Origin: a virus
IMG/VR virus record: IMGVR_UViG_3300047557_001921
Location: 1-47,924 of that record
Direction: 5' to 3' (one strand)
Length of the DNA: 47,924 nt
The position numbers and the translations under genes are program-made. Shown in pieces: positions 8,279-44,349 of the stretch (the first letter of the stretch is position 1; each line of letters begins with the position of its first letter). Under the pieces are notes generated by a model that saw only the letters and a list, made by a program, of their open reading frames with translations, was not told the origin of the DNA and searched no databases.

Positions 8279-11179
8279 ATGTTTAATTCCAAATACTCTG
8301 TCCCTGTTAAATCCCGCAAGGACGACTTCGAGTTGACGCTGCCAGTTGACCGCAACTGGTACTCGGAAGACAGCCGTCTGCTTATCGTGCTGGAGTCGGT
8401 AGACGGCACTGACCTAAAGGCTGGCCGGCTACTGGCGGATCGTAGTAAGGTGGTGGTAGAGAACCTCTTGAACTTTGCGGCACAGCAAGCAGCCCTGATA
8501 GATGAGGGCTGCAAGCTGCCTGCTCTTGCGGCCATCAACTTCAACAATGCCCGCACGTTTCATCTGCAAACAGAGACGGAGAAGGTTCCTTACCACACAC
8601 GATTCGTTAGGCGGATATACGCCGCTATCAAGAAACTCAAGCCTACGCACCTGCTAATCTGCGGTGACGGGGCGATGCACCACCTATTCCCAGACGTGGC
8701 GAACAGCCAGTGGAAACGAGGCTGGGTACACAGGCTGACAGTAGGCGACCTTAAGCTTAAGGTTGTGTCGACGCTAGACCTAGAGCCCTTGTACGTACCT
8801 AAGCGTACCCTCAAGGAAGAGGATGACGATGGTGGCGACAACGAATTCGAGCGCGACGACTTCGGTAAGTGCAACCTTCTAGGCTACGTCATCAGGAACA
8901 TCTCGCACTGCCTGCTAGGTCGGCACCCTTTCTCTTTGCGAAAGGTTGTGCCTAAGCCCCACTACATCAACACCATTGAGAAGTTTGACCGCTTCTACGC
9001 CAAGCTAAAGACCTCAGCTTTGGTTGCCACGGATACGGAGACCAAGAATCTTTCGGCTACCAAGAATGCTATCTTCACCATTCAGTTCGCCTTTACGAAA
9101 GACGAAGGCTACGTAATTCCTCTGCACCATCCTCAGACGCCGTTCTCTTCGGAAGAGGTTCAGTACATCAGTAAGAAACTGGCTCGATGGTTCATTGCCG
9201 AGCCTGAGGATCACTTCATAGGCCTGTTGGCCTTCAACGGCAAGTTTGACCTACGAGTGATTCGAGCCCAGTTCAAGCTGCCTATTATCCTGCGCCCTGT
9301 ATGGGAGATATCTTCTGGCGAACACGAGCTGGACGAGAACATCAAGTTCCTAGAGGACTTCGGTACGCCGAACGGCAACCTCAGAGCTACCTTCACCAGC
9401 TACAACAATGACCTGTACTGGACGATGCCTTTCTCCAAGGAAGAGCGCGCCACTATTGCGTTCGTGAACCCTGGCGACAAAGACTTCCTGGACTACGCGG
9501 TCCTGGACGTGCAGAGTTTGATCGGCATGAGGGAGATGCAGCTGGCTAAGGCCAAGCTGATGCGGTTAGGTAACAAGTCCTTCTTGCCGTTTTACCGTAG
9601 TTTGGTGCTCCAGCAGATGAGCAACACGGTGCACACTATCTCGCACATGGAGCAACGAGGTGTGTTCATCGACGGCTACTACCTCGCGCACCTAAAGTCC
9701 AAGGGTTCCCCTCTAGTACAGTCCATAGCAGAGACTAAGCGCGAACTGTTCGCTATGCCTAGTGTGGTCAAGGCGAACCAACTGCTACTGCAAAAGAACG
9801 ATTCAGTATCCTACGCCAAAGGCGGCTTGTTCAACGCCTCTAGTTGGGTACTGAACCTGAACAAGCCCGAACACAAGATCGTGATGTTCTTGGACGTGAT
9901 GAAGCTGGAGCCTCTCACGAAAACCAAGACAGGCCAGCCTCAGATAGACAAGAACTTCCAGAAGGCCTACGCAGACAAGCATCGTGAGGTGAAGCTGTTT
10001 GCTACGTACCAGGAGACCACTAAGCTCTGGGGTACGTATGTGAAGGGCTGGTACCAGAAGATTAAGGACAGCCCGGACGGATCGTTCGACGGCAGGCTGC
10101 GTCCTAGTTACGGATTCTTCCGCGTGGTAACAGGTCGCTTGAACTCTCAAGACCCGTCCCTGCAGCAGGTGCCTAGCCGAGGTGGTCTAGCCAAGTATGT
10201 GAAGCGGGCGTTCGTGGCACCACCCGGTACGTTGTATGTAAAGTATGACTACTCGGCACATGAGGTTAGGTTCTGGGGCATCATCGCTAAGGACGACGTT
10301 ATCGCAGATACGTTCAAGATGGGGCAATCCTTACGGCGCAAGTATCGAATACTGAGCCAACAGGTAAACCTCTCTAAAGCGGCGGATTACAAGAGACTTG
10401 TTGAAGAATGGTTTACGTATAACCCTAAGACAGGGGATTTGATATGGAAAAAGAAAACAGGAAGAAGCACAAGCTTAGGGTCACCTGCAGGGTCTAAGCG
10501 CGACGACGGCATTTATGTAAAAATCGAAGGCAAAGGATATATAGCCCATAGGCTAATCTTTGCGTATCTGTACGGGTGGTTACCGGACGAGGTCGATCAC
10601 AAAGATCGAGACAGGTTTAACAATTCCAAAGATAACCTGAGACCAGCCACTCGAGAGCAGAATGCCCAGAACCGAGGTAAAGAGTTAGGCAAGAATCCCG
10701 TATCCCGCTACAAAGGTGTTTTTAAACATTCTCAGAATGGTAACTGGGTAGCCCAGATAAGACCAGGCAAAGGACTGCGAGTAAAACACCTAGGAAGTTT
10801 CGACACGGAAGAGGAAGCTCACAAAGCCTACGTAAGGGCAGCTAAGAAGTACCATAAGCAATTTGCTAATGACGGTGTGATCTCTCTAGCTACAGGTGAG
10901 GTGGATTGTACCAATCCTTTAGAGCTCCTTCAAAAAGAGTTGCGTCAAAAGGGCGACGTCCATATCATCAACATTTACCACTTCTTCAAGAAGTGGGTCG
11001 ACAAGTCTCACCCTTTGCGTGACGCCATTAAGGCTGTGGTGTTCGGCACTATTTACCAGATGAGAGCAAGCTCGCTGGCTAAGAGTTTGAGGAAGCAGCG
11101 AGTAGGAGAACTGGATGACAAGGTGCGTAAGATGCGTAAGCGTATTGCTGAGCTCAAAGCTGAGCTAGGAGTAGAGTGA
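8279..11179 (+). CDS. DNA polymerase family A, N-terminal part (3'-5' exonuclease, palm motif A, fingers motif B) with in-frame HNH-AP2 insertion
   Basis: 966 residues. The proofreading exonuclease shows DTET (D252, E254), LLAFNGKFD and YAVLDVQ, matching ExoI, II and III. Palm motif A is DYSAHEVR (D657, E662). Fingers motif B is RDAIKAVVFGTIYQ: R914, K918, F922 and Y926 match the O-helix, with Gln replacing the usual Gly after Tyr. Between motifs A and B lies an in-frame HNH-AP2 domain (about 691-870). The reading frame ends after motif B in a charged heptad-like helix (KVRKMRKRIAELKAEL). The C-terminal palm, with motif C, is in the next gene, joined by TGATG. The product therefore needs the second polypeptide to form an active polymerase. 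Confidence 0.9.
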   Translation: MFNSKYSVPVKSRKDDFELTLPVDRNWYSEDSRLLIVLESVDGTDLKAGRLLADRSKVVVENLLNFAAQQAALIDEGCKLPALAAINFNNARTFHLQTETEKVPYHTRFVRRIYAAIKKLKPTHLLICGDGAMHHLFPDVANSQWKRGWVHRLTVGDLKLKVVSTLDLEPLYVPKRTLKEEDDDGGDNEFERDDFGKCNLLGYVIRNISHCLLGRHPFSLRKVVPKPHYINTIEKFDRFYAKLKTSALVATDTETKNLSATKNAIFTIQFAFTKDEGYVIPLHHPQTPFSSEEVQYISKKLARWFIAEPEDHFIGLLAFNGKFDLRVIRAQFKLPIILRPVWEISSGEHELDENIKFLEDFGTPNGNLRATFTSYNNDLYWTMPFSKEERATIAFVNPGDKDFLDYAVLDVQSLIGMREMQLAKAKLMRLGNKSFLPFYRSLVLQQMSNTVHTISHMEQRGVFIDGYYLAHLKSKGSPLVQSIAETKRELFAMPSVVKANQLLLQKNDSVSYAKGGLFNASSWVLNLNKPEHKIVMFLDVMKLEPLTKTKTGQPQIDKNFQKAYADKHREVKLFATYQETTKLWGTYVKGWYQKIKDSPDGSFDGRLRPSYGFFRVVTGRLNSQDPSLQQVPSRGGLAKYVKRAFVAPPGTLYVKYDYSAHEVRFWGIIAKDDVIADTFKMGQSLRRKYRILSQQVNLSKAADYKRLVEEWFTYNPKTGDLIWKKKTGRSTSLGSPAGSKRDDGIYVKIEGKGYIAHRLIFAYLYGWLPDEVDHKDRDRFNNSKDNLRPATREQNAQNRGKELGKNPVSRYKGVFKHSQNGNWVAQIRPGKGLRVKHLGSFDTEEEAHKAYVRAAKKYHKQFANDGVISLATGEVDCTNPLELLQKELRQKGDVHIINIYHFFKKWVDKSHPLRDAIKAVVFGTIYQMRASSLAKSLRKQRVGELDDKVRKMRKRIAELKAELGVE
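10349..10888 (+). mobile_element. HNH-AP2 homing endonuclease-like insertion inside the polymerase gene (boundaries approximate)
   Basis: About 180 codons resemble phage HNH-AP2 endonucleases: FTYNPKTGDLIWKK and GYIAHRLIFAYLYGWLP, then the HNH core (VDHKDRDRFNNSKDNLRP), NAQNRG, and a C-terminal AP2 DNA-binding domain (SRYKGVFKHSQNGNWVAQI; HLGSFDTEEEAHKAY). The frame stays open from polymerase into the domain and out again. There is no Cys...His-Asn splicing signature, so it is not an intein, and too little non-coding sequence for a group I intron core. Exact edges cannot be set without an uninterrupted homolog; base composition shifts near 10346. Confidence 0.8.
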
Positions 11180-11994
11180 TGGCCGCCACCTTAGACAAGA
11201 AACGCAGAGCCGAGTTGACCGAAGAGCTAGCCAAGCTGAGAGCAGAGTTGCCCGCGGTCAAGGCTGAGCTGAAAGAGGCGCAAGAGCGGGACTGGAAGGT
11301 TTTCGCAGAAGACCTGATAGCGAAACTGTTTCATCGCTATGCCAAAGGCGCAGCGTGGCTAGACTGGGCCAAGAACTTTGCTGAGAAGAACGGGTACGTC
11401 TATGCGCCTACAGGACGTCGTCGCAATCTTCCTGGCGTAATGATCGGCAACAAATCCCTGGTGTCGGCACTGTTGCGGCGCGCGGTGAATTCACCTATTC
11501 AAGGTACAGCCTCTGACGTTACTGCGACGGCTGCTCGACTAACGGCCGTCCACTTCTACCGCTACCTACGCAAGTTCAAGATGCTAGAAGGCGTAGAGTT
11601 TCTGCCTGGTGAGGCACTGAAATTGGTGCATGACGCTACCTACGCGGAAGCCGCCTACGACCACATGCTGGCGTACCTGCACATCACGCAGTGGGTCGCA
11701 ACGTATGGCGTTACCGAATACTACGAGAAAGAGTTCGGCTTCAAATTCAACATCGAGCCTGAGATAGAGGTCGAGATCGGCGCCCAGGAAGACCACATGT
11801 ATAAGTGGGACTGGACGGACGAAGGCTTACGAAAGATAGTCCGTTCGTCCTTAGAAGACCAGGTCAAGATCAAGATGCTCAAGGAAGAAGATCTGGAAAG
11901 ATCCTTCAAACGCATATTCAGGATTTACCGTAACCCCGAGATCGCACAGTTTCTACGTACCAACTATCCTATCCTAGGAGTAGTAGATGAGTGA
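11179..11994 (+). CDS. DNA polymerase family A, C-terminal part (palm motif C)
   Basis: 271 residues from ATG 11179, which overlaps the preceding TGA by one base (TGATG); a GTG at 11176 is also possible. The N-terminus is a charged coiled-coil-like helix (KKRRAELTEELAKLRAEL). Then come YAPTGRRRNLPG, the conserved RRAVNSPIQGTASD, and palm motif C as VHDATY (D152); the Glu usual after Asp in VHDE is Ala here. This supplies the catalytic carboxylate missing from the first polypeptide. Reinitiation at TGATG suggests coupled translation. The frame is -1 relative to the first gene, but no slippery heptamer is visible at the join. Confidence 0.9.
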   Translation: MAATLDKKRRAELTEELAKLRAELPAVKAELKEAQERDWKVFAEDLIAKLFHRYAKGAAWLDWAKNFAEKNGYVYAPTGRRRNLPGVMIGNKSLVSALLRRAVNSPIQGTASDVTATAARLTAVHFYRYLRKFKMLEGVEFLPGEALKLVHDATYAEAAYDHMLAYLHITQWVATYGVTEYYEKEFGFKFNIEPEIEVEIGAQEDHMYKWDWTDEGLRKIVRSSLEDQVKIKMLKEEDLERSFKRIFRIYRNPEIAQFLRTNYPILGVVDE

Positions 11995-15423: not shown

Positions 15424-16071
15424 ATGGCACAGTCTGCTCGTAAGGCAAACCCTGGTAAGAAAAAAGCGGTTCAGGAGGCAGTCGAAGACGCCTTTAATCC
15501 GTATGGCAACATAACAACCGTACTCGACCTGATCGAGAAAGAACTGGACATATCGGATGGTGGCCTAGTGCCTAATGAAGCCCGAATGTCCACAGGATTA
15601 TTGTGCCTAGACATTGTGCTAGGCGGAGGTATCACCGCAGGTTGGTACACCAACTTCGGGCAAGAGCAGTCCTGTAAGACAACCTTAGCGGTCAACATTC
15701 TCTTCTCGGCTCTGTTCAGCCGAATCCCTATCCTGGCCTACTGGGACTTTGAAGGTTGCTTAACCAAAGACTCCACGTTACGTCTTGAAGGTAATGAGGA
15801 CGTTAGTTTTGACCAACTGGCAAAGACGTACTCCGATGGAGACTCGGTGTCAGGTATATTGACCGTCGGCGGTGCTTCCTCTACCGGGACCTTCCGGGTT
15901 ATCCCGGACAAACCTTTGCACAGCATCAGGCTAGAAGATGGTACCTGTTTTAGGGGGTATAAACACCCCTTTTTAGTATGGGACCCTCTCACCGAGGATG
16001 CAGAGTGGGTTCTACTAGAAAATCTTAAGGTCGGTATGACCTTACTACAGTCATCACCTCTTCCGGGGTAG
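15424..16071 (+). CDS. RecA/UvsX-type recombinase, N-terminal part fused to split-intein N half
   Basis: 215 residues. Residues 1-111 are RecA-like: ARMSTGLLCLDIVLGGG, a Walker A-like loop GQEQSCKTT with Cys where Gly is usual, and YWDFEG carrying the catalytic Glu region. At Cys112 the sequence changes to an intein N-terminal half (CLTKDSTLRLEG; later TCFRGYKHPFLV), which ends at the stop. The remainder of RecA lies downstream (17425), so full-length protein requires protein trans-splicing. The stop codon is inside a strong inverted repeat and the 3' end overlaps the opposite-strand endonuclease gene by 47 bases. An AGGG lies before the ATG. Confidence 0.9.
   Translation: MAQSARKANPGKKKAVQEAVEDAFNPYGNITTVLDLIEKELDISDGGLVPNEARMSTGLLCLDIVLGGGITAGWYTNFGQEQSCKTTLAVNILFSALFSRIPILAYWDFEGCLTKDSTLRLEGNEDVSFDQLAKTYSDGDSVSGILTVGGASSTGTFRVIPDKPLHSIRLEDGTCFRGYKHPFLVWDPLTEDAEWVLLENLKVGMTLLQSSPLPG
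15757..16068 (+). mobile_element. Split intein, N-terminal half
   Basis: 104 residues starting at Cys112 with intein block A (CLTKDSTLRLEG) and a block B-like stretch (IRLEDGTCFRGYKHPFLV) containing the His of the splicing centre. No endonuclease domain. The partner C half is encoded at 17425-17586. The insertion site, right after DFEG, is at the RecA Walker-type catalytic Glu region, where inteins favour conserved residues. Confidence 0.88.
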
Positions 16072-17389
16072 TTAATCTAACTACCCCGACCTTAGGCAGT
16101 TGAAGGTATATCACAAAATTGCTTACGGTCTTGAATGCGGCCTTGAATTTAGCTAGGTTCTTTTCAATAAGGCCTCTGTTGAAAGGGACTAGCCCCATGG
16201 TGTAGAAACTCTTCACTTCTGCAACTTCTGCCTTACCTATAGGTGACACGTACTTGATATCCGGGTAGTACCTACGAGAAACTCCTTGGTACTCATAGGG
16301 TATTGTGACTATCTCTCTAGTTTCGGTAGTGAGATCCGTAACCTTGTATTGACGTAAAAGTTTCTCCACTACTTCGGCTTCCAGCTGAGATCTAACATCG
16401 TACGTCTTTTTCTTTACCGTAACAGGACGGAGTTTGTACCGAGATGATAAGACCTTTTCCATAATGTCAGCTACGTGAGTAGGATAGGATGTGCGTACCT
16501 GGTATCGCCAGTAGTAGGTCTCCTCCATCTTCCTGATGTACCAATCTAGTTCTCTCATGTTAGTGGTGCCGTACCTTTTGATGTAGGTCTCTTTAGTTTT
16601 TCTCGCTAGGGCGGCTAGTCCCCTATCATAGGTACCGTACTCGTCCGTTAAGTTTCTTTTTCGAGATGCGACTGCTTTAGCGGCGATACTAGGCACTCTC
16701 ATTGCGTTACTCACATCTGTTTGATATCTAGCCTGCAAAGTCTTTATGCCTTTTAGGTGCCTACGAGCCCGTTCTTCTGTTGATACTTGTCCTGCGAGCT
16801 CCTTCACACTTTCCATCTTGAAAGGATTGTCTACTCCGTATTTCGCCAACCATGTCTCTTTCTTTTTCTGGAGTACGGCTTTGTTTCTAGATATATTGGT
16901 TACGCCGTACCTATCGACCAGAGTCTGCACACTTTTGCGTCTCACCTCATAACTTTGTTGAGGGAAATCTACCCCATAATTCCTGCGACAGGTTTGAATC
17001 TTCTTTTCTCTCGCCCCTTCGATGTGTGAAGGGTTGGTTACTCCGTACTTATCTAGTAAAGCTTTACGGATAGACTGCTTTACTTTAGGGTCTCGTAGGG
17101 AGCATCCTCTTTGAGCATACTGCGAGTATCGTTTGCCTACGAACAGAGTAGGTCTGCCACACCCGCAGCAACACAGGTGTTTATTGGGGTCCCTTAGAGT
17201 TAGCGCGTCGTAGGCAGCTTGAGCTAAAGGAGCTCCTTGGCGTAGTCTCTTCTTGAGAAGCTGTCTGTGTCTTCTATTAGGTAACTCTTGTATAGCCCTA
17301 ATGATACTTTTCAAGTAAAGCCGGCGGCCACCTCTGTAAATAGATTTAGGTAAAACCTTTTGTGCAACTGTGTTTAGATCAGTCTTCAT
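16025..17389 (-). CDS. Free-standing homing endonuclease, PD-(D/E)XK/Vsr-like, in the fractured RecA locus
   Basis: 454 residues, the only minus-strand gene in the window. A strong ribosome site (AGGAAGG) precedes the ATG. Features: a Cys cluster (CCCGCG, residues 73-78), then tandem modules with a KYGVTNP-type core (near 114, 138, 161, 183, 273), a repeat seen in phage homing endonucleases, and a C-terminal nuclease core YYPDIKYV...AEVKS (D377, E391, K393). It lies between the two RecA halves, an arrangement known as a fractured gene, where a stand-alone endonuclease spreads with a split intein. It should cut an intact recA allele near the insertion site; specificity is not shown by sequence. 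Codon use is AT-richer than in neighbours. Confidence 0.85.
   Translation of the reverse strand: MKTDLNTVAQKVLPKSIYRGGRRLYLKSIIRAIQELPNRRHRQLLKKRLRQGAPLAQAAYDALTLRDPNKHLCCCGCGRPTLFVGKRYSQYAQRGCSLRDPKVKQSIRKALLDKYGVTNPSHIEGAREKKIQTCRRNYGVDFPQQSYEVRRKSVQTLVDRYGVTNISRNKAVLQKKKETWLAKYGVDNPFKMESVKELAGQVSTEERARRHLKGIKTLQARYQTDVSNAMRVPSIAAKAVASRKRNLTDEYGTYDRGLAALARKTKETYIKRYGTTNMRELDWYIRKMEETYYWRYQVRTSYPTHVADIMEKVLSSRYKLRPVTVKKKTYDVRSQLEAEVVEKLLRQYKVTDLTTETREIVTIPYEYQGVSRRYYPDIKYVSPIGKAEVAEVKSFYTMGLVPFNRGLIEKNLAKFKAAFKTVSNFVIYLQLPKVGVVRLTTPEEVMTVVRSYRP
16026..16094. other. Nested inverted repeats at the fracture boundary
   Basis: Three overlapping pairings: TAAGGTC(16026-16032)/GACCTTA(16038-16044); GGGGTAGTTA(16065-16074)/TAACTACCCC(16078-16087), a perfect 10-base stem with a 3-base loop; and TAAGGTCGG(16026-16034)/CCGACCTTA(16086-16094). 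They contain the stop codons of both convergent genes (IntN and the endonuclease). No T-run follows on either strand. It may be a bidirectional transcription or RNA-stability signal, or a recombination scar. Confidence 0.7.
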
Positions 17390-17424: not shown

Positions 17425-17586
17425 ATGAAATTACTGAAAGCGGATTTAGCCAAGCTAGGCTTAACCCCTATTGAAGTTGTAGCTAGTGCGCCCACAGGCA
17501 CACGGGAGACCGTTTACGATGTATCGTTGCCGGGGACGGAACTGGTGCCCCACAGCATTATCACTAATGGTATCGTCACTCACAAC
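17425..17586 (+). mobile_element. Split intein, C-terminal half
   Basis: 54 residues ending GIVTHN, with block F (ETVYDVSLPG) and block G (the penultimate His and terminal Asn). Followed by Ser, the +1 nucleophile. It matches the N half at 15757-16068; together they lack an endonuclease domain, which here is replaced by the separate minus-strand gene. Confidence 0.9.
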
Positions 17587-19815
17587 TCGGCAAGTCCTGA
17601 ATACTACGAAACGATCATGCGTAAGGTGACACGCAGATTGTTTACTAGCATCAGTGAAGTGTTCGGCGAAAAGGACAACAAAGGCCAGTGGGTTCACCCG
17701 CCCGTTATTCGCTATCGCTCTGAGGCTGTAGCCGAGAAGTTCTTCGACTTCCTGGCGTCGATCGAACGCAAGCTTCCAGACAAGAAACTACTCGGAGACC
17801 AGTGGTACTACGTCTACGAAGATACTAAACCTAACCGGGCCATCGTCAAGGACAAGTTCGACAAGTCTTATTTCTCCAAGACTGGCAAGTTGCGCGTACC
17901 TGCACCTGACGGCTCTTTGCAGGCCATTGTCCTGGTTGACTCGTACCCGGCGATGCTCCCAGAGAAGCAGGACGTCGACGATCCTAACAACGCTATCGCT
18001 ATGCAAGCCCGGATGTTCTCTGACCAGCTCAAGCGGGTTAAGGGCAGAATGCGCGGCAAGAGGATCGCGGTGTTCGGCATCAATCAGCTTAGGCTGAAAC
18101 CTATGGTCATGTTCGGCTGCCTGCACGGCTCCGCTCGGGTGGTCCTGGCTGACGGTAGTACGATGTTGATGGAAGACATCGTGCAAAACAAGATTAAAGG
18201 GCCGGTTATGTCGTACAACCCGGTCACTAAGAAAGTTGAGCCTAAAGCCATCAAGCGTTGGTTTAACAATGGCCACACAGATGATTGGCTTCAATTCAAG
18301 TTGGGGGGAGTAGACACCGCTAATGGACTAACCAGTCTTAGGTGTACCCCCAACCATTTGTTGATGAGTGGCAAAGGTAAACTCAAGAGGGCGAAGTCCT
18401 TTAAAGACGGCGACACCTTGATGTTAACCAGTTTGAAGCCTGCCTTAAATGAGGTTCAGCGCCAGGTAATACTAGGGTCTATTCTGGGCGACGGTTGGTT
18501 CAAGGTCAAGAACCGAGGTTTTGGTGTTAGAGGCGGTTTCGCTCACAAAGAGGCAGATTCCAGTTATGTGGAATACAAAGCCAACTTGCTGGGGTCTTAC
18601 GGACAACCCGCCTACGGGGGGAAAATGCTAACCGTAGAGACGTGCATGATGCACGAACCTTGGCTAACACAGATTGTAAAAACCGCAAAGGGGAAAGGGC
18701 GAAAGTACCATTTCTGCAAAGAGCTATTCGAGAAGATTGAGCCTTTAGGTCTAGCTATCTGGCTAATGGATGATGGCGCACGTTCAGGTAAACCTGGAGT
18801 AGGGACCTTGTCGTACAGCCTAGAGGACACTCGGAAAATATCTCGAGCATTGAACAGAAAGTTTGGCACCAAGTGCCGAGTCAAAGTTCATAGAGACAAA
18901 TATGCTCCTACAGGATATGGGTATGGGGTGCAGTTCTGTGAAAAAATGATGGCGTTGATAGCCCCGTATTTATATGAACCGTTCTACGAAGGGTTTACCA
19001 CTAAGCACAGAGATTTGCCGGGATTCGCCTCCGCTAAAGTAACGCCCTTGCCTCCAGGGGACAGATTTACTTATCCTGCGGTGATACGTTCTATCACTCC
19101 TGGGGCACCTACCCAGAGCGTTAATGGTCGGCTGATAGGTAATACCAAGTACGACCTAGAGATAGAAGGTAATCACTTGTACGTGGTTAACGGAGCCGTT
19201 GTCCATAATTCTCCGGAGTACGAGCCGGCCGGAGAAGCCCTCAAGCTCTATTCGGACGTGCGGCTCAAGTGCACCTCGCGGGCTATCTCTGCGGTGGATG
19301 GTGCTAAGGGCAAAGGTCAAATCGAACTGGAGCCGTCCTTGACTGGCGATGGCGATGACGAGTACCGCTATGTCCACATCAGGGCGCATAAGAACAAGCT
19401 GAGTGTGCCTTACCTAGAGTGCTTCCTGCGCTTGTGGATCAAAGACGTTGATGGTGTCGCTCAGGGTTTTGACCTGGTCTACGACACGTATGAGTACCTG
19501 CGGTCTACAGGTCAAGCCACAGGTAACCGTAAGGCCATCCACATCCACTTGCACGGTCAGGAGAAACCTTTCCGCAGGCCTCTTCCTTGGAGCGTCTTCA
19601 AGACTCTTATCTTAGGTGACAAGCCTAAGATCAAGTCCATCTTCACTAAGCTAGGGCTAAAGCCGATGATGCTGCGTACCTTCTGCGAAAAGCAAATGAA
19701 GTCCGGGAAAGGGTTGGACCTCTACTTTGCTCACCAGAAGGCTGCGAAGAAGGCGGCTATCGCCAAGAAGAAAGCTAACCCGGATGCGGACGACGAAGGC
19801 GGCAGTGAGGAGTAA
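17425..19815 (+). CDS. Split-intein C half fused to RecA/UvsX central and C-terminal parts, with a second intein
   Basis: 796 residues. Residues 1-54 are an intein C half (VYDVSLPGTELV...GIVTHN) followed by Ser55 as +1 extein. Residues 55-231 continue RecA (SPEYYETI; AIVLVDSYPAM; INQLRLKPMVMFG). A second intein occupies 232-595. Residues 596-796 resume with SPEYEPAGEALKLYSDVRL, matching the RecA motif after INQ-R-K-G-V-M-F-G, then a lysine-rich C-terminus. Extein total with the N part is about 489 residues, longer than E. coli RecA. The product should form filaments on ssDNA and drive strand exchange after one trans and one cis splice. A GGAG-like site precedes the ATG. Confidence 0.92.
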   Translation: MKLLKADLAKLGLTPIEVVASAPTGTRETVYDVSLPGTELVPHSIITNGIVTHNSASPEYYETIMRKVTRRLFTSISEVFGEKDNKGQWVHPPVIRYRSEAVAEKFFDFLASIERKLPDKKLLGDQWYYVYEDTKPNRAIVKDKFDKSYFSKTGKLRVPAPDGSLQAIVLVDSYPAMLPEKQDVDDPNNAIAMQARMFSDQLKRVKGRMRGKRIAVFGINQLRLKPMVMFGCLHGSARVVLADGSTMLMEDIVQNKIKGPVMSYNPVTKKVEPKAIKRWFNNGHTDDWLQFKLGGVDTANGLTSLRCTPNHLLMSGKGKLKRAKSFKDGDTLMLTSLKPALNEVQRQVILGSILGDGWFKVKNRGFGVRGGFAHKEADSSYVEYKANLLGSYGQPAYGGKMLTVETCMMHEPWLTQIVKTAKGKGRKYHFCKELFEKIEPLGLAIWLMDDGARSGKPGVGTLSYSLEDTRKISRALNRKFGTKCRVKVHRDKYAPTGYGYGVQFCEKMMALIAPYLYEPFYEGFTTKHRDLPGFASAKVTPLPPGDRFTYPAVIRSITPGAPTQSVNGRLIGNTKYDLEIEGNHLYVVNGAVVHNSPEYEPAGEALKLYSDVRLKCTSRAISAVDGAKGKGQIELEPSLTGDGDDEYRYVHIRAHKNKLSVPYLECFLRLWIKDVDGVAQGFDLVYDTYEYLRSTGQATGNRKAIHIHLHGQEKPFRRPLPWSVFKTLILGDKPKIKSIFTKLGLKPMMLRTFCEKQMKSGKGLDLYFAHQKAAKKAAIAKKKANPDADDEGGSEE
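18118..19209 (+). mobile_element. Second intein in RecA, LAGLIDADG type
   Basis: 364 residues from Cys232 (CLHGSARVVLADGSTMLMEDI) to N595 (YVVNGAVVHN), +1 Ser. LAGLIDADG-like motifs are ILGSILGDGW and LAIWLMDDGA. It interrupts MFG/SPE near the DNA-binding loop 2 region of RecA. Splicing restores GSPEYEPAGEAL. A contiguous cis-splicing intein in a gene also dependent on a trans-splicing one is rare. Confidence 0.93.
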
Positions 19816-34351: not shown

Positions 34352-35150
34352 AGAAAGGGCACCGTTTACTCTAAGCCCTAAAGGCCGTCGCGTAGGAGTA
34401 GGAGCCTCAGGACTAGCGACCTCCACCTTAGAGGTTCAGAGGCGAGATTTGGCTGACCGTAGCGAACCTGCCTACCTCAACGACTTCAATGAAGAGATAC
34501 GAATAGAGCAAGAGGCCGCTCGAGAAAGAAAATTCACCCTGGACGACCTGTCGCCTCGGGTTGTATCCTTACCTAAAGCACCTGTGGTGCAGGTGCAGCG
34601 CAAGAAGCGGCGCATCAAGGTAAAAGCTCTCACAGGCAAGAGCCGGCATACGTTCAGGATGATACGGTTTCAGGTAGCAGAAGATCCTGTCGTTAAGACG
34701 GCGCCTGTCAACAAAGACATCTTGGCCACTAGCCAGCGGCTCAAGAAGCCTTTTTTCCGCTCGTTGGATGCGAACCAGAAGGCCATCAGCAAGTACCTGA
34801 TTCAAGATTTGGCTCCCTTGATGCTACCGGCCATGTCCGCCATCGACGACGCCAAGGAAGTCCTCAGCGAGATAACTGACCTCGACATTGACACGCCTCT
34901 GTACGCTACCCTGACGAAGTTCCTTCGGCTGGGGGTAGAGGTGAAACTAGCTACCTGGGTATCCCGATACCTGGGTCTGTCTGCGGAAGAGACGCAGACG
35001 CTATTCCATAGACTGGAACCTAAAGATGACAAAAAACTCATGCCTGGGATGCAGCCTATTCACCAGATGCTTCGATCCCAAGAAGAAGGCCTCCTACTCC
35101 TGCAAAAAGTTCTCGCCGCTACGAAAAAAGCTCAGCAGAGCCGAAGCTGA
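34338..35150 (+). CDS. Hypothetical protein overlapping the terminase gene
   Basis: 270 residues starting within the DnaB-like gene's end (14-base overlap; GGAGG upstream). N-terminal half basic and disordered-looking (KKRRIKVKALTGKSRHTFRM), C-terminal half helical (LAPLMLPAMSAIDDAKEVLSEI; KLATWVSRYLGLSAEETQTLF). The last 125 bases overlap the start of the large terminase in another frame. It might be the small terminase or a packaging partner from its position, but no small-terminase motif is seen. Confidence 0.55.
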   Translation: MKKSKERAPFTLSPKGRRVGVGASGLATSTLEVQRRDLADRSEPAYLNDFNEEIRIEQEAARERKFTLDDLSPRVVSLPKAPVVQVQRKKRRIKVKALTGKSRHTFRMIRFQVAEDPVVKTAPVNKDILATSQRLKKPFFRSLDANQKAISKYLIQDLAPLMLPAMSAIDDAKEVLSEITDLDIDTPLYATLTKFLRLGVEVKLATWVSRYLGLSAEETQTLFHRLEPKDDKKLMPGMQPIHQMLRSQEEGLLLLQKVLAATKKAQQSRS

Positions 35151-38100
35151 AACCATATACGGTTCATTAACCGTTCAGCTTCATCAAGAGGATACTGCCT
35201 CCAATCTACTAGACAACCCCGACGCAGATTTCGATATCGTCTCTCTAGTAGAGTCGGCCTACGATGCTGACACTAACACGGTACGTGACTTAAAGGTCGA
35301 TGACCGTGACCTACCCAAAGCCAAGAACTTCTACGACTACTGCTTGCACTACCTAGGACCGACGGCAAAGGTACCTTTCGCACGGCAGATGTGGATGGGG
35401 TACAAGCTACTGGCAGAGTATTGTGTTAGCGGGGATACTTTACTACTGACAAGTCGAGGGCTGCGGCGCATAGACGACCTCGTCGGGGCTAACCGTGGGC
35501 TACTCCCGGTTTCTGATTTAAGAGTAGCTACTAGGCTAGGTTCTCACGAGGTTACTTACGGAGGAAAAACGGGTACACAGACCTGTTTAACTATCAAAGT
35601 CCGTGGAGAAATACCTTTAACGGTTACCCCTAACCATAAGGTTCTTGTTCTATCAGACACACTTGACTTGACTTGGGTTAAAGCAAAGCACCTATCTCCC
35701 GGGGACTGGTTGGTTAGCCCCTCTAGTGTGGACTTGTGGCCGAAAAAGGTTCCTAGGTTGCCTACAGAATTTGTCTGGGACAAGACCAACGGAATAGCAA
35801 AACCTCCAGTCTCAGGATTTAAGCCTTTAAGGAAAGTCACCCCTGAGCTTGCGAAACTTGTAGGGTACTTGATTACAGATGGAAGTTTCTGTAAACAAGT
35901 GGGGTTCATTAACGAGAACAGGGCTATCATAAAGGACTTTGCCTCGTGTCTAGGTTCTGTATTTGGATTGTCTGCGGTTGAAATATCTAGGAAAAGGCGC
36001 AAGGCTTTGAAACAACGGTATCCTACTATGGGGTTGGGGAACTGGGCTAATCAGTATCTGCAATTTCTAGGGCTTAAACCTGGTAGGTGCTATACAAAAG
36101 AGTTGCCTTGGTTTATTCTACAAGCCCCTAGGCACCTAGTGATTGCTTGTTTGCGAGCCATGTTTGACAGCGATGGCTTTATCAGCCGACACAGAGTAGG
36201 CATAGAGTTATCCTCGGTCACTGCGGTCCGTCAGATCCATCTACTAATGAAAAATTTAGGAATTGAAGGGAACTATCAAGAATTTGAGATTGATAGTGAT
36301 ACCCATCCTTGTATTAAAGTAAAAACCAATAGGGAAGGGAAAAATCAGAGGGCTCGATGGCAGGCCTGCACCAAACACGCATTGAAAATGTATGCCGAGG
36401 TTATAGGAAGCACCCACTCTGAAAAACGCCGCACTTTGGCTAAACTATTACGGCTAAAAACACCTAATATAAGGATTGTGAACGGTCAGTATGGGGTAGT
36501 CCATAGTGGCAATATCCCTCAGTGGGACTCCCCTTATGTTAAACGCTGCCTGGCCCCCACTTTTTATCACGAAAGTGCGTTAAGTATAAGCACTTGCCAA
36601 AGAAAGAAAACAGCTAATCTAGCTTTTTTGCTATCTCACCCAGGACTTGCGCGTAGACTGAGCAAGACAGAGGACAGACAACTTCTTGCAAAAAAATTAG
36701 TACGCCTCTCCGAGTTAGGCTACAGGTATGTTAAGGTTACTTCTGTCGAAGACGCGATTAAGCAACCTGTTTATGACATAACTGTACCTGTCAATGAGAG
36801 CTTTTTAGCTAATGGTATCATAGTTCATAATTGCCCTAGGTGTAGTAACCCTAAGTGGGAGAACATCTACGAGGTACCTGTAGACTACAACGCTCGCAAC
36901 ATGCCGGAGCATGTCCAGTTCCTAGAGAACGGAGTGTGTCCTAAGTGCAAGTGGACCAAGTCTAAGCTTATTCGAGCAGGCTTGATGAACCTGTACTCGG
37001 AACTCGACGTCTGCGCAGGGCAGCGTTCAGGTAAGAGCGCCTACACCGCGGCCTTGAGCACGTACATCACCCACCTGCATCTCAAGAATCCTAGGTTAGC
37101 GACACTGTGTGATGGTATTCAGGAATCCACTCCACTGACCGCGACCTTCGTCGGCATTCGATTCGACGACGCTTACAAGCTGCTCTGGACTCCTATCCTA
37201 GAGATCATGGATGCCAGCCCTTGGTTCAACGAGTACCACGCCTTGTTGAACCAGTGCTCTGAGAAGTACGGCAAAGAGCTGCTAAAGAAACGCGACGTCT
37301 ATGTTCGTTACGCCCACAAGAACATCGACCTCTTCCCTATGTCGTCCAACAAGCGGGCGCTGCGTGGTAGAACTCGATTCCTTGGAGCCGTAGACGAAAT
37401 CGGTTGGTTCCCGTTGAACCCCAATGCTAAGGCTGACGAAGACGCAGGCGATGGTAACTCTGATCGTGAAAGGGCCGACGGAGAGGAAGTCTATACGTCC
37501 CTTGACCGTAGTATGCTTACGGTACGAGCTGAGGTGCACAGACTAATCCACGTCAAAGGCATCAGCACTATCCCTACCGCCATTAACGTGCTGATCAGTT
37601 CGCCTGCGTCCGCTAAGGACAAGATATCTAGACTGGTCGAGCAGAATAAACACAGCAAGAGTGCTCTGGCAGTTCACCTTCCTACATGGGAGATGAACCC
37701 TAACCTTCCAGAAGACCACCCGATCATCCGCAAAGCGTACCACGACAATCCTTCTAGGGCAGAGCGAGACTACGGAGCCAAGCCGCCGAAGTCCATCAAC
37801 CCGTACATGGCTAACCCGGACATCAAGGCCAACTTTAAAGGCATGAACAGGGCCACTGCCAAAATAGTGGACAAGAATATGCACGGCACCCACTACCGAG
37901 GTGGGATGCTCAACAAGGTGATGCCGGAGAACGACATACCCCCTGCGATCTTGTCTGTGGATGCCGGGTATAGCAATAACAGCTTTGGCTTGACGTTGAT
38001 GTACAAGGAAGCTCTCAAGATAGTGGTGCCTGTCTTGATCGAGATTCAGCCTTCGCAGGGCGCGGTACTTCACTACAACGCTATCTGGAAAGGCGTCATC

Positions 38101-38640
38101 GTTCCCTTGATACAGCAGTTCAACGTCCAATTGCTGCTAGCTGACAGGTGGCAGAGTCTAGCCTTGCTGCACCGTGCCCAAGACGAACTCGGTATCAAAG
38201 CGGCGGTGTACTCCGTTAAACGTAGAGACTTCGACCTAGTTAAGTCTAAATTCGAGTCCCAGGAGTTTGTACTGCCGTCTATCGAAGCAGACATATCAGA
38301 CGACACCGCTATTATGGACTACCCGAGTGCCTTCACAGGTAAGCCCGCCGCTCATCTGTTCTTCCAGTGTATGACTGTTAGGGACATGGGTAAGACAGTT
38401 GTTAAAGGTGATGGGTACACAGACGATTTGTTCCGTGCCCTAGTGCTAGGCGCTTCCCGTGCATTCGATCCTAAGGTGATCGAGTACCTAGCAACTCGTA
38501 GGAAGACCAAGCGCGGACCGGTTGCCTTAGGTTCTATGATAGGGCTAACGTCAGGCGGCATGACTTCTACCAGCCGCGCCATCTCTGCTGCCCGTGCAAT
38601 CCCGAGGATAGCCAGTGTTGGCATGTTGTCCCGTCGTTAA
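35026..38640 (+). CDS. Terminase large subunit, intein-containing precursor
   Basis: 1204 residues; about 734 after removing the intein (133-602). An N-terminal four-Cys cluster (C6, C9, C15, C26) precedes PFARQMWMGYKLLAEY. After splicing, CPRC...CPKC forms another probable zinc site. ATPase: Walker A AGQRSGKSA (K670, S671), Walker B GAVDEIGW (D790, E791). RNase H-like nuclease: ILSVDAGY (D979), LLADRWQSLALLH and a late acidic patch. It should translocate DNA into proheads and cut it. The start overlaps the preceding gene by 125 bases; the Cys cluster in the overlap supports it. The portal follows, as expected. Confidence 0.9.
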   Translation: MTKNSCLGCSLFTRCFDPKKKASYSCKKFSPLRKKLSRAEAETIYGSLTVQLHQEDTASNLLDNPDADFDIVSLVESAYDADTNTVRDLKVDDRDLPKAKNFYDYCLHYLGPTAKVPFARQMWMGYKLLAEYCVSGDTLLLTSRGLRRIDDLVGANRGLLPVSDLRVATRLGSHEVTYGGKTGTQTCLTIKVRGEIPLTVTPNHKVLVLSDTLDLTWVKAKHLSPGDWLVSPSSVDLWPKKVPRLPTEFVWDKTNGIAKPPVSGFKPLRKVTPELAKLVGYLITDGSFCKQVGFINENRAIIKDFASCLGSVFGLSAVEISRKRRKALKQRYPTMGLGNWANQYLQFLGLKPGRCYTKELPWFILQAPRHLVIACLRAMFDSDGFISRHRVGIELSSVTAVRQIHLLMKNLGIEGNYQEFEIDSDTHPCIKVKTNREGKNQRARWQACTKHALKMYAEVIGSTHSEKRRTLAKLLRLKTPNIRIVNGQYGVVHSGNIPQWDSPYVKRCLAPTFYHESALSISTCQRKKTANLAFLLSHPGLARRLSKTEDRQLLAKKLVRLSELGYRYVKVTSVEDAIKQPVYDITVPVNESFLANGIIVHNCPRCSNPKWENIYEVPVDYNARNMPEHVQFLENGVCPKCKWTKSKLIRAGLMNLYSELDVCAGQRSGKSAYTAALSTYITHLHLKNPRLATLCDGIQESTPLTATFVGIRFDDAYKLLWTPILEIMDASPWFNEYHALLNQCSEKYGKELLKKRDVYVRYAHKNIDLFPMSSNKRALRGRTRFLGAVDEIGWFPLNPNAKADEDAGDGNSDRERADGEEVYTSLDRSMLTVRAEVHRLIHVKGISTIPTAINVLISSPASAKDKISRLVEQNKHSKSALAVHLPTWEMNPNLPEDHPIIRKAYHDNPSRAERDYGAKPPKSINPYMANPDIKANFKGMNRATAKIVDKNMHGTHYRGGMLNKVMPENDIPPAILSVDAGYSNNSFGLTLMYKEALKIVVPVLIEIQPSQGAVLHYNAIWKGVIVPLIQQFNVQLLLADRWQSLALLHRAQDELGIKAAVYSVKRRDFDLVKSKFESQEFVLPSIEADISDDTAIMDYPSAFTGKPAAHLFFQCMTVRDMGKTVVKGDGYTDDLFRALVLGASRAFDPKVIEYLATRRKTKRGPVALGSMIGLTSGGMTSTSRAISAARAIPRIASVGMLSRR
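35422..36831 (+). mobile_element. Intein with LAGLIDADG endonuclease in the terminase
   Basis: 470 residues from Cys133 (CVSGDTLLLTSRGLRRIDDL) to N602 (FLANGIIVHN), +1 Cys. LAGLIDADG motifs are LVGYLITDGS and LRAMFDSDGF. Strongly AT-rich compared with flanking exteins (for example runs of aaaaa), suggesting recent entry. It interrupts a probable zinc knuckle rather than the P-loop, unlike the helicase intein. Confidence 0.93.
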
Positions 38641-41438: not shown

Positions 41439-42386
41439 ATGAACATTCGACAGGTGCTAAGGCTGCCTCTGGCACAGAAGAAGGTGCTCTTCAAGAAGGC
41501 CCGCCGGGCGTATTACAACGACGCGCAAGGCCGGACGTTGATGTCGGATGACGACTTCGACCGTCTCGAAGAGTCTATCCGAGACGAAGATCCTGACTGG
41601 GCAGAGCTCAAGAAAACAGGAGCGCCTATCCAGAAGAAGGTGAAAGTAAAACTCGAATACAAGATGCCGTCTCTGGATAAAGTGAAGCCCGAGACGGTTC
41701 AGCGTTTTCTGGACGCACATCGAAAGAAGATCATCAATACCAGCCTCAAGCTAGACGGCACTGCCATTCAAGTGCATTTCGATAAGCAAGTGCCGGTTGC
41801 CGCCTTCACTCGAGGCAATGGTGACGTAGGTGGGGACATCTCCTTCCTCATACCTCACCTGAAAATTCCCCGCAAGATTCCGTACTCCCGCAAATTCGTG
41901 GTGAGATGCGAGGGTGCGTTCACCGCCTCTGCTTTCAAGAAGTACGCCCATGAATTCGACGCTGCTCGCAATGCAGCCTCTGGTCTCCTGAATCGTGGCA
42001 GCAACAAGATCCATACTGCCATCCGCGACCTAGACGTTATCGTTGTGCGAGTTCTGGAGCCTCGCATTCAGCACTCTAAGGGACTGGCGTACGCCAAGAA
42101 GTACGGCTTTCAGGTGGTGCCTAATATCTCCAAACCTGCCGAGTCCCTTCGCCCTGACCGGCTGGCGGCCTTGCTAGACAAGAAAAAGGCGAGCAGCAAG
42201 TACCAACTAGACGGCTTGGTACTGACGCTAGACGAAGTCAATCCCCGAGACACCACTGAGAAACCTTCTTACGCGGTCGCCTTCAAGACGGTAGGGGACA
42301 CTTTCCTTGCTCGTGTGGTAGACATAGAGTGGCAAGTAAGTGCACACGGTGTCCTAGTTCCTGTAGCTATACTGGAGTCAGTATGA
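41439..42386 (+). CDS. NAD-dependent DNA ligase (LigA), N-terminal part: Ia, adenylation and start of OB domain
   Basis: 315 residues. Domain Ia-like YYNDAQGRTLMSDDDFDRLEE; nucleotidyl lysine in KLDG (K104, residues 104-107); TRGNGDVGGD; EFDAARNAASGLL; YAVAFKTVG; and the start of the OB domain (VVDIEWQVSAHGVLVPVAILESV). It stops exactly there; LigA proteins continue into the rest of the OB fold. The remainder is at 43387-44349, after an endonuclease gene. TGA overlaps the endonuclease ATG (ATGA). The two ligase parts must combine for activity. Confidence 0.88.
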   Translation: MNIRQVLRLPLAQKKVLFKKARRAYYNDAQGRTLMSDDDFDRLEESIRDEDPDWAELKKTGAPIQKKVKVKLEYKMPSLDKVKPETVQRFLDAHRKKIINTSLKLDGTAIQVHFDKQVPVAAFTRGNGDVGGDISFLIPHLKIPRKIPYSRKFVVRCEGAFTASAFKKYAHEFDAARNAASGLLNRGSNKIHTAIRDLDVIVVRVLEPRIQHSKGLAYAKKYGFQVVPNISKPAESLRPDRLAALLDKKKASSKYQLDGLVLTLDEVNPRDTTEKPSYAVAFKTVGDTFLARVVDIEWQVSAHGVLVPVAILESV

Positions 42387-43390
42387 ACGTCTACGTCTTG
42401 ATGGATAAGGCAGAGAAAGCAGACATTTGGCTTAGCCCTAAGGTGGCACTACTCTGGGAGCCTTTTTATGTAGGTAAAGCTAACAATGTAGAAAGCAGGT
42501 TGCTTACTCACGTATTTAGACCTCATAACAAAGAGCTCTACGAAAGGTTGACAGGCGTAGAGGAGTTAGAGGTTTGTGTTATACCCTTCTCTTCTGAGGA
42601 AAAGGCGTACGATTTTGAAGCTAGACTAATCCCTTATCTAGGTAGAAAGGACCTAAAGGAGGGTCCTCTCTTAAATAAGAGTAATGGGGGTGAAGGCGTA
42701 GTGCATCCTTCTTTTGCTTCGATTCAAAAGCGCCGCCTCAGGTTAAGTGTGGCTAGGTCTGCCTACTTGTCCAAATTAGCAACCCAGTTTCCTGACGAAT
42801 ACGCTTCTTACCTCAAACGTCTTCATTCGGGGTTAAACCGTTACTATCGTAACGTATCTGCCACAGCTCTCTCTAAGAGAGCACAGGCTTCTGTAGTAAC
42901 TCGGCGAGCCTCTGGTATGGATGTGGTTAGTGCTACCAACCGCCGAAAGACTTTGCGTAATAAGTATATTACCAAGTATGCCGACCTACTAAGACCTCTT
43001 AAGGGGACTTTTGAGGCTGATGGCTCTAGTTGGCTTTTTACGGACCTTGGAAATTTTTGGTGCAAGAATCACGGGTCTATTATTCAAAGTAGCCTGATGA
43101 CAAGAAGAAATCTGGTGAAAAATGGTAGTCCTTGTAGTAAGTGTATTCACGAGGGAGCAATACGAGCTAATTCTAGCTCTACTTTGGCTAGGTACGAAGC
43201 CATCTATTCGTCTCTACTATCCAAGTATTCTGACAAGATATCATATCAGCAAGGATACTGTGGGATAAACGTCCCGTGTGGCCATCATCTCTCTTCAGGA
43301 CGCACCTTGTCTCTAACCCCCAGAGAGGTACTAGACAGTATAGGGAAACGAGTTGGCTTGTACCTTACTGTGTGGGGGAAATCCTTATGA
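42383..43390 (+). CDS. GIY-YIG homing endonuclease splitting the ligase gene
   Basis: 335 residues from ATG 42383 (an upstream ATG at 42329 would lie in the ligase). N-terminal VYVLMDK...PFYVGKANNVESRLLTH matches the GIY-YIG core (Y..V...G), then EEKAYDFEARLIPYLG with the catalytic-type Glu. The C-terminus has a Cys/His segment (FWCKNHGS...GSPCSKCIHEG) like DNA-binding zinc domains of phage homing enzymes. AT-rich codons against its neighbours. It meets both ligase parts by ATGA overlaps, with no spare sequence for an intron core, so it appears to be a free-standing insertion. It may cut intact ligase alleles. Confidence 0.85.
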   Translation: MNVYVLMDKAEKADIWLSPKVALLWEPFYVGKANNVESRLLTHVFRPHNKELYERLTGVEELEVCVIPFSSEEKAYDFEARLIPYLGRKDLKEGPLLNKSNGGEGVVHPSFASIQKRRLRLSVARSAYLSKLATQFPDEYASYLKRLHSGLNRYYRNVSATALSKRAQASVVTRRASGMDVVSATNRRKTLRNKYITKYADLLRPLKGTFEADGSSWLFTDLGNFWCKNHGSIIQSSLMTRRNLVKNGSPCSKCIHEGAIRANSSSTLARYEAIYSSLLSKYSDKISYQQGYCGINVPCGHHLSSGRTLSLTPREVLDSIGKRVGLYLTVWGKSL

Positions 43391-44349
43391 TTACTAAGGT
43401 CAGACCCGGGGTAGAATTCGATGGAGCTATTGTCCGCAAGGCTACGGTCAACAACGCCAAGTGGATGTACGACAGAAAGATTGGACCTGGTGCAGTGGTA
43501 CGCCTTGTCCGCAGTGGGGAGATCATCCCCAAGATCATTGACGTGATCAAGCCTGGTAAGCTAAAGCTTCCACCTGCTTCTGTCGGCAAATACCAGTGGG
43601 ACGAGAACGGTACGCACTTCGTCCTTCTCGACAAATCTGTTAGCGTCGAAGCAAAGACGCGCGGCATTGTGCGGTTCTTCCGCGGCGTCGAGGTCGACCT
43701 CATTGGGCCTGGAGTCGCAGCCAAGCTTTACGAAGGCGGCTTCACTACGGTGCTCTCTATCTTGAGAGCTACCAAGGAGGACTTCCTGCAGCTGCCTGGT
43801 ATCCAGGACAGAGGGGCTACCAAGCTCTACGCCGCGGTGCAAGTTCTCTACACTCGAGGCGTAGAGCTGCCAAAGCTGATGGAAGCTAGTGGTGCGTTCC
43901 CTCGTGGTATGGGTGAGAAGAGGATCAAGCAGATCGCCAAGCAAGCACCTGACCTACTGGGACTGGCTGACCTTACACCTAAGGCACTAACCTCCTTGTT
44001 GCTCAGCATACCAATGTTTTCTGACACGATGGCTGCGGTGTTCGTCGAGGGCATCTACCCCTTCGTTAAGTGGTTTAAGCGCACCCGAATCAAGATAGCG
44101 CAGCCGCGCAAGGTAAAGGTGGAGAGCAACCAGCTAAATGGCTTGCGGGTGTCTTGGACAGGTTACAGGTCACCCGAACAAGAAAATGCTGTGACCACGT
44201 CGGGTGGTGAGGTCGTGTCGTTCGGCGGCCAGACCCAGGTGCTTATCTACTCACCTACTGGAAAGGCATCTACGAAAGTAGACAAGGCTCAGGCGAAGGG
44301 TATCACTACCCTCACTTGGGATCAGTTCCGCAAGAAGTACAAACTCTAG
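43387..44349 (+). CDS. NAD-dependent DNA ligase (LigA), C-terminal part: rest of OB, HhH, BRCT
   Basis: 320 residues from ATG 43387, overlapping the endonuclease stop. RPGVEFDGAIVRKATVNNAKW and VRLVRSGEIIPKI continue the LigA OB domain after LESV in the first part. Then a region at the usual zinc-finger place (PPASVGKYQWDENGTHFVLL) with no cysteines, an HhH domain (DLIGPGVAAKLYEGGF; LQLPGIQDRGATKL), and a BRCT-like end (LNGLRVSWTGYRS; GGEVVSFGGQTQVLIYSP). It provides DNA binding for the adenylation part. Loss of the zinc finger cysteines is unusual. Confidence 0.85.
   Translation: MITKVRPGVEFDGAIVRKATVNNAKWMYDRKIGPGAVVRLVRSGEIIPKIIDVIKPGKLKLPPASVGKYQWDENGTHFVLLDKSVSVEAKTRGIVRFFRGVEVDLIGPGVAAKLYEGGFTTVLSILRATKEDFLQLPGIQDRGATKLYAAVQVLYTRGVELPKLMEASGAFPRGMGEKRIKQIAKQAPDLLGLADLTPKALTSLLLSIPMFSDTMAAVFVEGIYPFVKWFKRTRIKIAQPRKVKVESNQLNGLRVSWTGYRSPEQENAVTTSGGEVVSFGGQTQVLIYSPTGKASTKVDKAQAKGITTLTWDQFRKKYKL

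Follow-up and report, generated by a model that had tools for sequence, protein, structure and literature searches.

A phage NAD+-dependent DNA ligase gene divided within its OB fold by a probable GIY-YIG homing endonuclease gene

Results and Discussion

In a 47.9-kb IMG/VR virus record (referred to below as the window, that is, the whole stretch of DNA analysed) a GIY-YIG gene interrupts the gene of an NAD+-dependent DNA ligase within the part that encodes the OB domain. We regard it as very probable that the ligase gene was invaded by a homing endonuclease gene and that the ligase of this phage consists of two non-covalently associated chains. Open reading frames, Pfam and PHROG profiles bear out the split with an ATGA junction on either side that had been proposed in a sequence-only reading of this DNA. 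The features of the locus are as follows.

41439..42386, plus strand: LigA-N, 315 aa, ending in PVAILESV; comprises region Ia (NAD-binding), the nucleotidyltransferase domain with the K of LKLDGTA, and the beginning of the OB fold (PF01653, PF03120, PHROG 3869)
42368..42385, plus strand: 7-bp hairpin UAUACUG-GAGU-CAGUAUG; its loop contains the RBS GAG, its 3' arm the start codon of the endonuclease (folding energy)
42383..42386, plus strand: ATGA, LigA-N stop and endonuclease start, GGAG 5 nt upstream
42383..43390, plus strand: GIY-YIG endonuclease gene, probable free-standing homing endonuclease, 335 aa, catalytic motif residues present (PF01541, UvrC alignment)
42384..43413, plus strand: minimal inserted segment, 1030 bp, with a GTA triplet before it and at its end (alignment with intact ligases)
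43387..43390, plus strand: ATGA, endonuclease stop and LigA-C start, GGGGGA upstream (-8.4 kcal/mol with the anti-SD)
43387..44349, plus strand: LigA-C, 320 aa; extra MITKVRPG, followed from V9 onwards by the remainder of the OB fold, the HhH region and a BRCT-like C-terminus (PF03120, HHH_5, PHROG 3869, 1dgs)

Ligase homology and the position of the break

LigA-N matches DNA_ligase_aden (PF01653, 1.6e-22) and columns 2-26 of DNA_ligase_OB (PF03120), whose columns 26-72 are found in LigA-C together with HHH_5 (6.9e-8). The phage ligase profile PHROG 3869 is covered from column 15 to 336 by LigA-N (2.5e-65) and from 336 to 654 by LigA-C (2e-46); since both segments meet at column 336, the ligase loses no residue. 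Furthermore, the TIGR00575 matches of the halves meet at 333, the end of LigA-N aligns to about residue 345 of E. coli LigA, and LigA-C aligns to residues 344-656 of T. filiformis LigA (1dgs). Summed up, the halves amount to 635 aa, intact relatives having about 620-660 aa. Spread over two chains, the adenylation domain with its KxDG lysine (the K of LKLDGTA, which aligns with LigA), the OB domain, the HhH region and the C-terminal region follow each other in LigA order. Between the OB domain and the HhH region the four-Cys zinc finger is absent, as LigA-C contains no cysteines in that stretch; the ligases of phage relatives, that of Motura among them, are also devoid of it and the missing finger is therefore a trait of the phage clade.

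In comparison with intact ligases the last Val of LigA-N and V9 of LigA-C fall into one alignment column, and both are encoded by GTA. This defines the minimal insert of 1030 bp, whose removal in silico joins the flanks LESV and EFDG in frame. The expected junction was thus found in part: LigA-N indeed ends at LESV and normal LigA order is kept, but the homology in LigA-C resumes at V9 (VEFDG...) and not at RPG. LigA-C gains eight residues, MITKVRPG, ahead of its ligase homology. A profile test against the ligase strand yielded P = 0.007 for PVAILES at the end of LigA-N and P of about 0.1 for MITKVRPG; a reading of MITKVRPG as a second copy of the strand was rejected, as this similarity is not significant. 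The endonuclease frame starts and stops within the ATGA overlaps and thereby overlaps both ligase parts, as the sequence-only reading had stated; frame and insert begin at the same base, and 23 nt of the insert follow the end of the frame.

The intact ligase of the closest relative (L009, see below) was modelled with AlphaFold2 at a pLDDT of 90; its model matches E. coli LigA (2owo, 4glx) as well as the heterodimeric PR1 phage ligase (9hu3, 9i5i). By alignment the break maps to V308 of this model, in the strand 298-310 and just before the turn 311-312. The two-chain ligases compared here (those of T5, 9hu3 and the viral locus L081 described below) break after the OB domain and not inside it, which makes reassembly less certain here.

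Intact relatives and condition of the halves

Relatives were recovered with a ligase profile as 80 viral loci (IMG/VR), and in 77 of them a single open frame spans the junction. The closest relative, L009 (44% over the whole protein), has an intact 623-aa ligase and carries terminase, portal (49%) and the 40962 homologue upstream in the same order, so that the comparison with intact homologues proposed as a check delivered an uninterrupted, syntenic counterpart. In the cultured relatives Motura and BcepSauron the ligase is likewise one chain, and by its portal and polymerase matches the window lies close to these large phages; a search for the portal by peptide pattern gave no match. A second ligase broken at the same place was not present among the 80 loci. 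One viral locus (L081:3897-6031) encodes its ligase in two ORFs, divided past the OB domain with no endonuclease in between, and two others (L058 and L059, 3997-5930) hold it in two overlapping frames with a break inside the NTase domain, either a frameshift or a real split.

For the condition of the halves, conserved columns were defined as those kept in at least 70% of 59 non-redundant intact ligases. LigA-N retains 40 of 44 and LigA-C 34 of 39 such columns, which is near the median of the 59 intact ligases; at the 90% level LigA-C ranks low (15 of 17), yet inside the range of this set. The proline next to the break (column 314, conserved at 80%) is a Ser in LigA-N and is the sole 80% column that LigA-N loses. 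Terminal branch lengths are ordinary in the trees of the N half, the C half and the full ligase. As the conserved columns of both halves lie within the range of intact ligases, the ligase homology is not a matter of chance, and taken together with the ordinary branch lengths they give no clear sign of decay.

The inserted gene

The middle frame matches GIY-YIG (Pfam PF01541, 3.3e-4) with 21.3 bits, just below the cut-off of 22.6. The motif itself is present, with VYVL...FYVG, R in ESR, E in FEARLI and N in LLNKSNGG, and an alignment with the UvrC GIY-YIG domain pairs FYVG, R and E with the endonuclease. Weak relatives occur in other phages, one of them being a 'putative homing endonuclease' of BcepSaruman; a single-sequence structure model reached a pLDDT of only 32 and was discarded. 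Peptide-pattern searches of viral contigs revealed no close relatives of LigA-N, LigA-C or the endonuclease, and those of genome contigs none of the endonuclease; searches of viral contigs found no second genome carrying the same insertion.

GC (0.447), GC3 (0.427) and codon score (-0.057) of the endonuclease gene are each the lowest among 36 genes. The codon scores of the ligase halves (0.099 and 0.090) are similar to those of neighbouring genes. By composition the insert is foreign and the ligase halves are native. With an insertion site that is empty in relatives and with neither intron nor intein detected at the locus, the gene has the properties of a free-standing homing endonuclease gene.

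Expression of the three genes

Both internal starts possess their own ribosome-binding sequence (GGAG at 5 nt; GGGGGA) with a strength equal to that of other starts, which makes independent initiation possible. The ATGA overlaps, in turn, suggest a coupled translation of the three genes in the manner of a relay. The hairpin over the endonuclease start (-6.2 kcal/mol) makes this the third most stable start region among 36; the chance of any 7-bp hairpin over a given start is about 8%, and a regulatory meaning of the hairpin is suggestive only. Inspection of the sequence at either ATGA found no slippery heptamer, and a frameshift fusion of the frames was rejected.

A more far-reaching proposal, which we consider doubtful, would embed the endonuclease in the expression of the ligase: LigA-C would be reached mainly by translating through the endonuclease gene, the hairpin would damp the start of the latter, the split OB fold would form a regulated heterodimer, and, in view of the two-chain polymerase and the probable split-intein UvsX of this contig, the replication proteins of the phage would generally be assembled from pieces. 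If this were true, the phage would forfeit its ligase whenever the endonuclease was lost imprecisely.

Proposed origin and alternative explanations

In the scenario we favour, a GIY-YIG homing endonuclease gene would have entered the NAD+-dependent ligase gene close to the point where an OB-domain beta strand ends. Stop/start overlaps and ribosome-binding sequences would have fitted the ends of the insert to the ligase frames. The ligase would then be made as two polypeptides, LigA-N (NTase and start of the OB domain) and LigA-C (rest of the OB domain, HhH and BRCT), which may assemble non-covalently, complete the OB fold and yield an active heterodimeric ligase. When relatives co-infect, their intact ligase genes would be cleaved by the putative endonuclease and would acquire its gene through repair.

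Alternatively, the insertion could have killed the ligase and left a decaying relic, the phage relying on the ligase of its host or on another one. The 47.9-kb contig is probably a fragment and another ligase gene may consequently lie elsewhere in the genome; moreover, the conserved proline at the break is lost and a very recent insertion could look the same. Both frames, however, are open and of full length with start codons and ribosome-binding sequences in place, and conserved columns and branch lengths resemble those of intact ligases while codon use is native in both halves, so that we judge a relic to be unlikely.

Still less probable is the reading of the insert as a self-splicing group I intron with a core that overlaps the endonuclease frame; its removal from the mRNA would give one normal ligase chain. 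Many phage GIY-YIG endonucleases reside in group I introns (PMC2988022), and the exact removal of 1030 bp restores the frame. No Rfam intron was detected, however, at E values up to 10 in the locus, nor in the 361-nt regions at either end of the insert, and a search of the whole window gave none either. Since the whole-region search also missed the T4 td intron, only the regional search constitutes a fair test; with 361-nt regions the 3' piece of T4 td was recognised as RF00028 at 1e-6 and nrdB was found at 3e-6. The conserved catalytic core of group I introns was likewise not found in the locus, in agreement with the earlier claim that there is no room for one, as the endonuclease frame occupies the insert from its first base to the last 23 nt. 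None of the five seamless joins has the U before and the G at the end that are expected for group I introns; this U|G rule is obeyed by certain joins at which one residue close to the junction is added or altered. Finally, the internal ribosome-binding sequences argue against splicing, as LigA-C would need none if it were a mere exon.

Protein splicing was assessed by the presence of an N-intein starting with Cys or Ser after LigA-N and of a C-intein ending in His-Asn before LigA-C. No split-intein sequence exists at the ligase junctions: LigA-N stops at LESV and LigA-C begins with MITKVRPG.

An assembly chimera, in which an endonuclease fragment was joined into a ligase, is barely credible, because the two joins share one homologous column, each is an ATGA overlap and the endonuclease frame is complete, even though the source is a 47.9-kb IMG/VR virus record and a second copy of the insertion was not found.

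Comparison with known split genes

A heterodimeric phage ligase as such is established, with the break after the OB domain, for T5 and PR1. The T5 genes dnlj1 and dnlj2 are two genes 202 nt apart with no endonuclease between them, and chain B of 9hu3 is a relative of T5 dnlj2. The T5 and PR1 ligases (9hu3, 9i5i) thus share with the present case a two-chain NAD+-dependent phage ligase, whereas the break here lies inside the OB fold.

Reportedly, Dassa et al. (2009) described fractured phage replication genes with an endonuclease between the halves, in which split-intein parts rejoin the halves. An endonuclease between the halves is common to those genes and to the ligase described here, whose break differs in having no intein sequence.

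Homing endonuclease genes are known to split nrdA of Aeromonas phage Aeh1 (mobE) and a topoisomerase gene of T4 (PMC2988022). The split Aeh1 NrdA is fully functional and the start of mobE overlaps the stop of nrdA (PMC2988022); in phage 25 a split gene 43 is associated with a homing endonuclease, and 43A and 43B copurify with activity (PMC2988022). As in Aeh1, where function is retained, a probable homing endonuclease gene lies here inside the gene of a replication enzyme that is encoded as two polypeptides; in Aeh1 an HNH endonuclease is combined with ribonucleotide reductase, whereas in the window a GIY-YIG gene is combined with a ligase and ATGA is found at both joins. The arrangement 43A/seg43/43B of Aeromonas phage 25, whose halves copurify and work, likewise has a GIY-YIG (seg-like) gene with a split replication gene. 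There, however, the enzyme is a DNA polymerase B and it is uncertain whether the endonuclease caused the split. The two-chain ligases of T5 and 9hu3 together with the precedents of Aeh1 nrdA and phage 25 gene 43 support the two-chain reading.

A break inside the OB fold appears to be new. In text searches of an incomplete literature collection no publication on a ligase divided by such an endonuclease turned up, which is weak evidence that an endonuclease-split ligase is new. In the favoured reading DNA ligase is added to the few phage enzymes that a homing endonuclease gene has divided, and the break within one small domain, the OB fold, and not between domains would offer a natural test of a beta-barrel rebuilt from two chains.

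Other interrupted genes in the window

As outcomes of mobile elements in replication genes, the contig exhibits side by side a plain division into two chains, a probable split intein and complete inteins. The probable split-intein UvsX, the inteins and the two-chain polymerase with its in-frame insert, all described below, support the view that this genome tolerates broken replication genes.

UvsX/RecA is encoded by 15424-16071 and 17425-19815 and is, as judged from its sequence, probably broken by a split intein: the first half continues past YWDFEG into CLTKDST..., and the second starts with a C-intein-like part ending in VTHN before SASPEYY. Between the halves and antisense to them (16025-17389, minus strand) lies a homing endonuclease gene of the DUF7487/phrog_3339 type. 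The second UvsX frame (17425-19815) additionally contains a whole LAGLIDADG intein (CLHGSARVVL...AVVHN) after VMFG.

The family A DNA polymerase is found in two chains (8279-11179 and 11176-11994) with a GTGA overlap, the break lying in a coiled-coil hairpin region at the site of the long helical insertion in the fingers of the BcepSaruman enzyme; the polymerases of Motura and BcepSaruman are one chain of about 1056 aa. The same polymerase bears an in-frame HNH_3 and AP2 insert of about 180 aa (10390-10930) without intein end motifs. Furthermore, LAGLIDADG_3 inteins are present in a 2030-aa SNF2-type helicase (1054-7146) and in the 1204-aa terminase (35026-38640).
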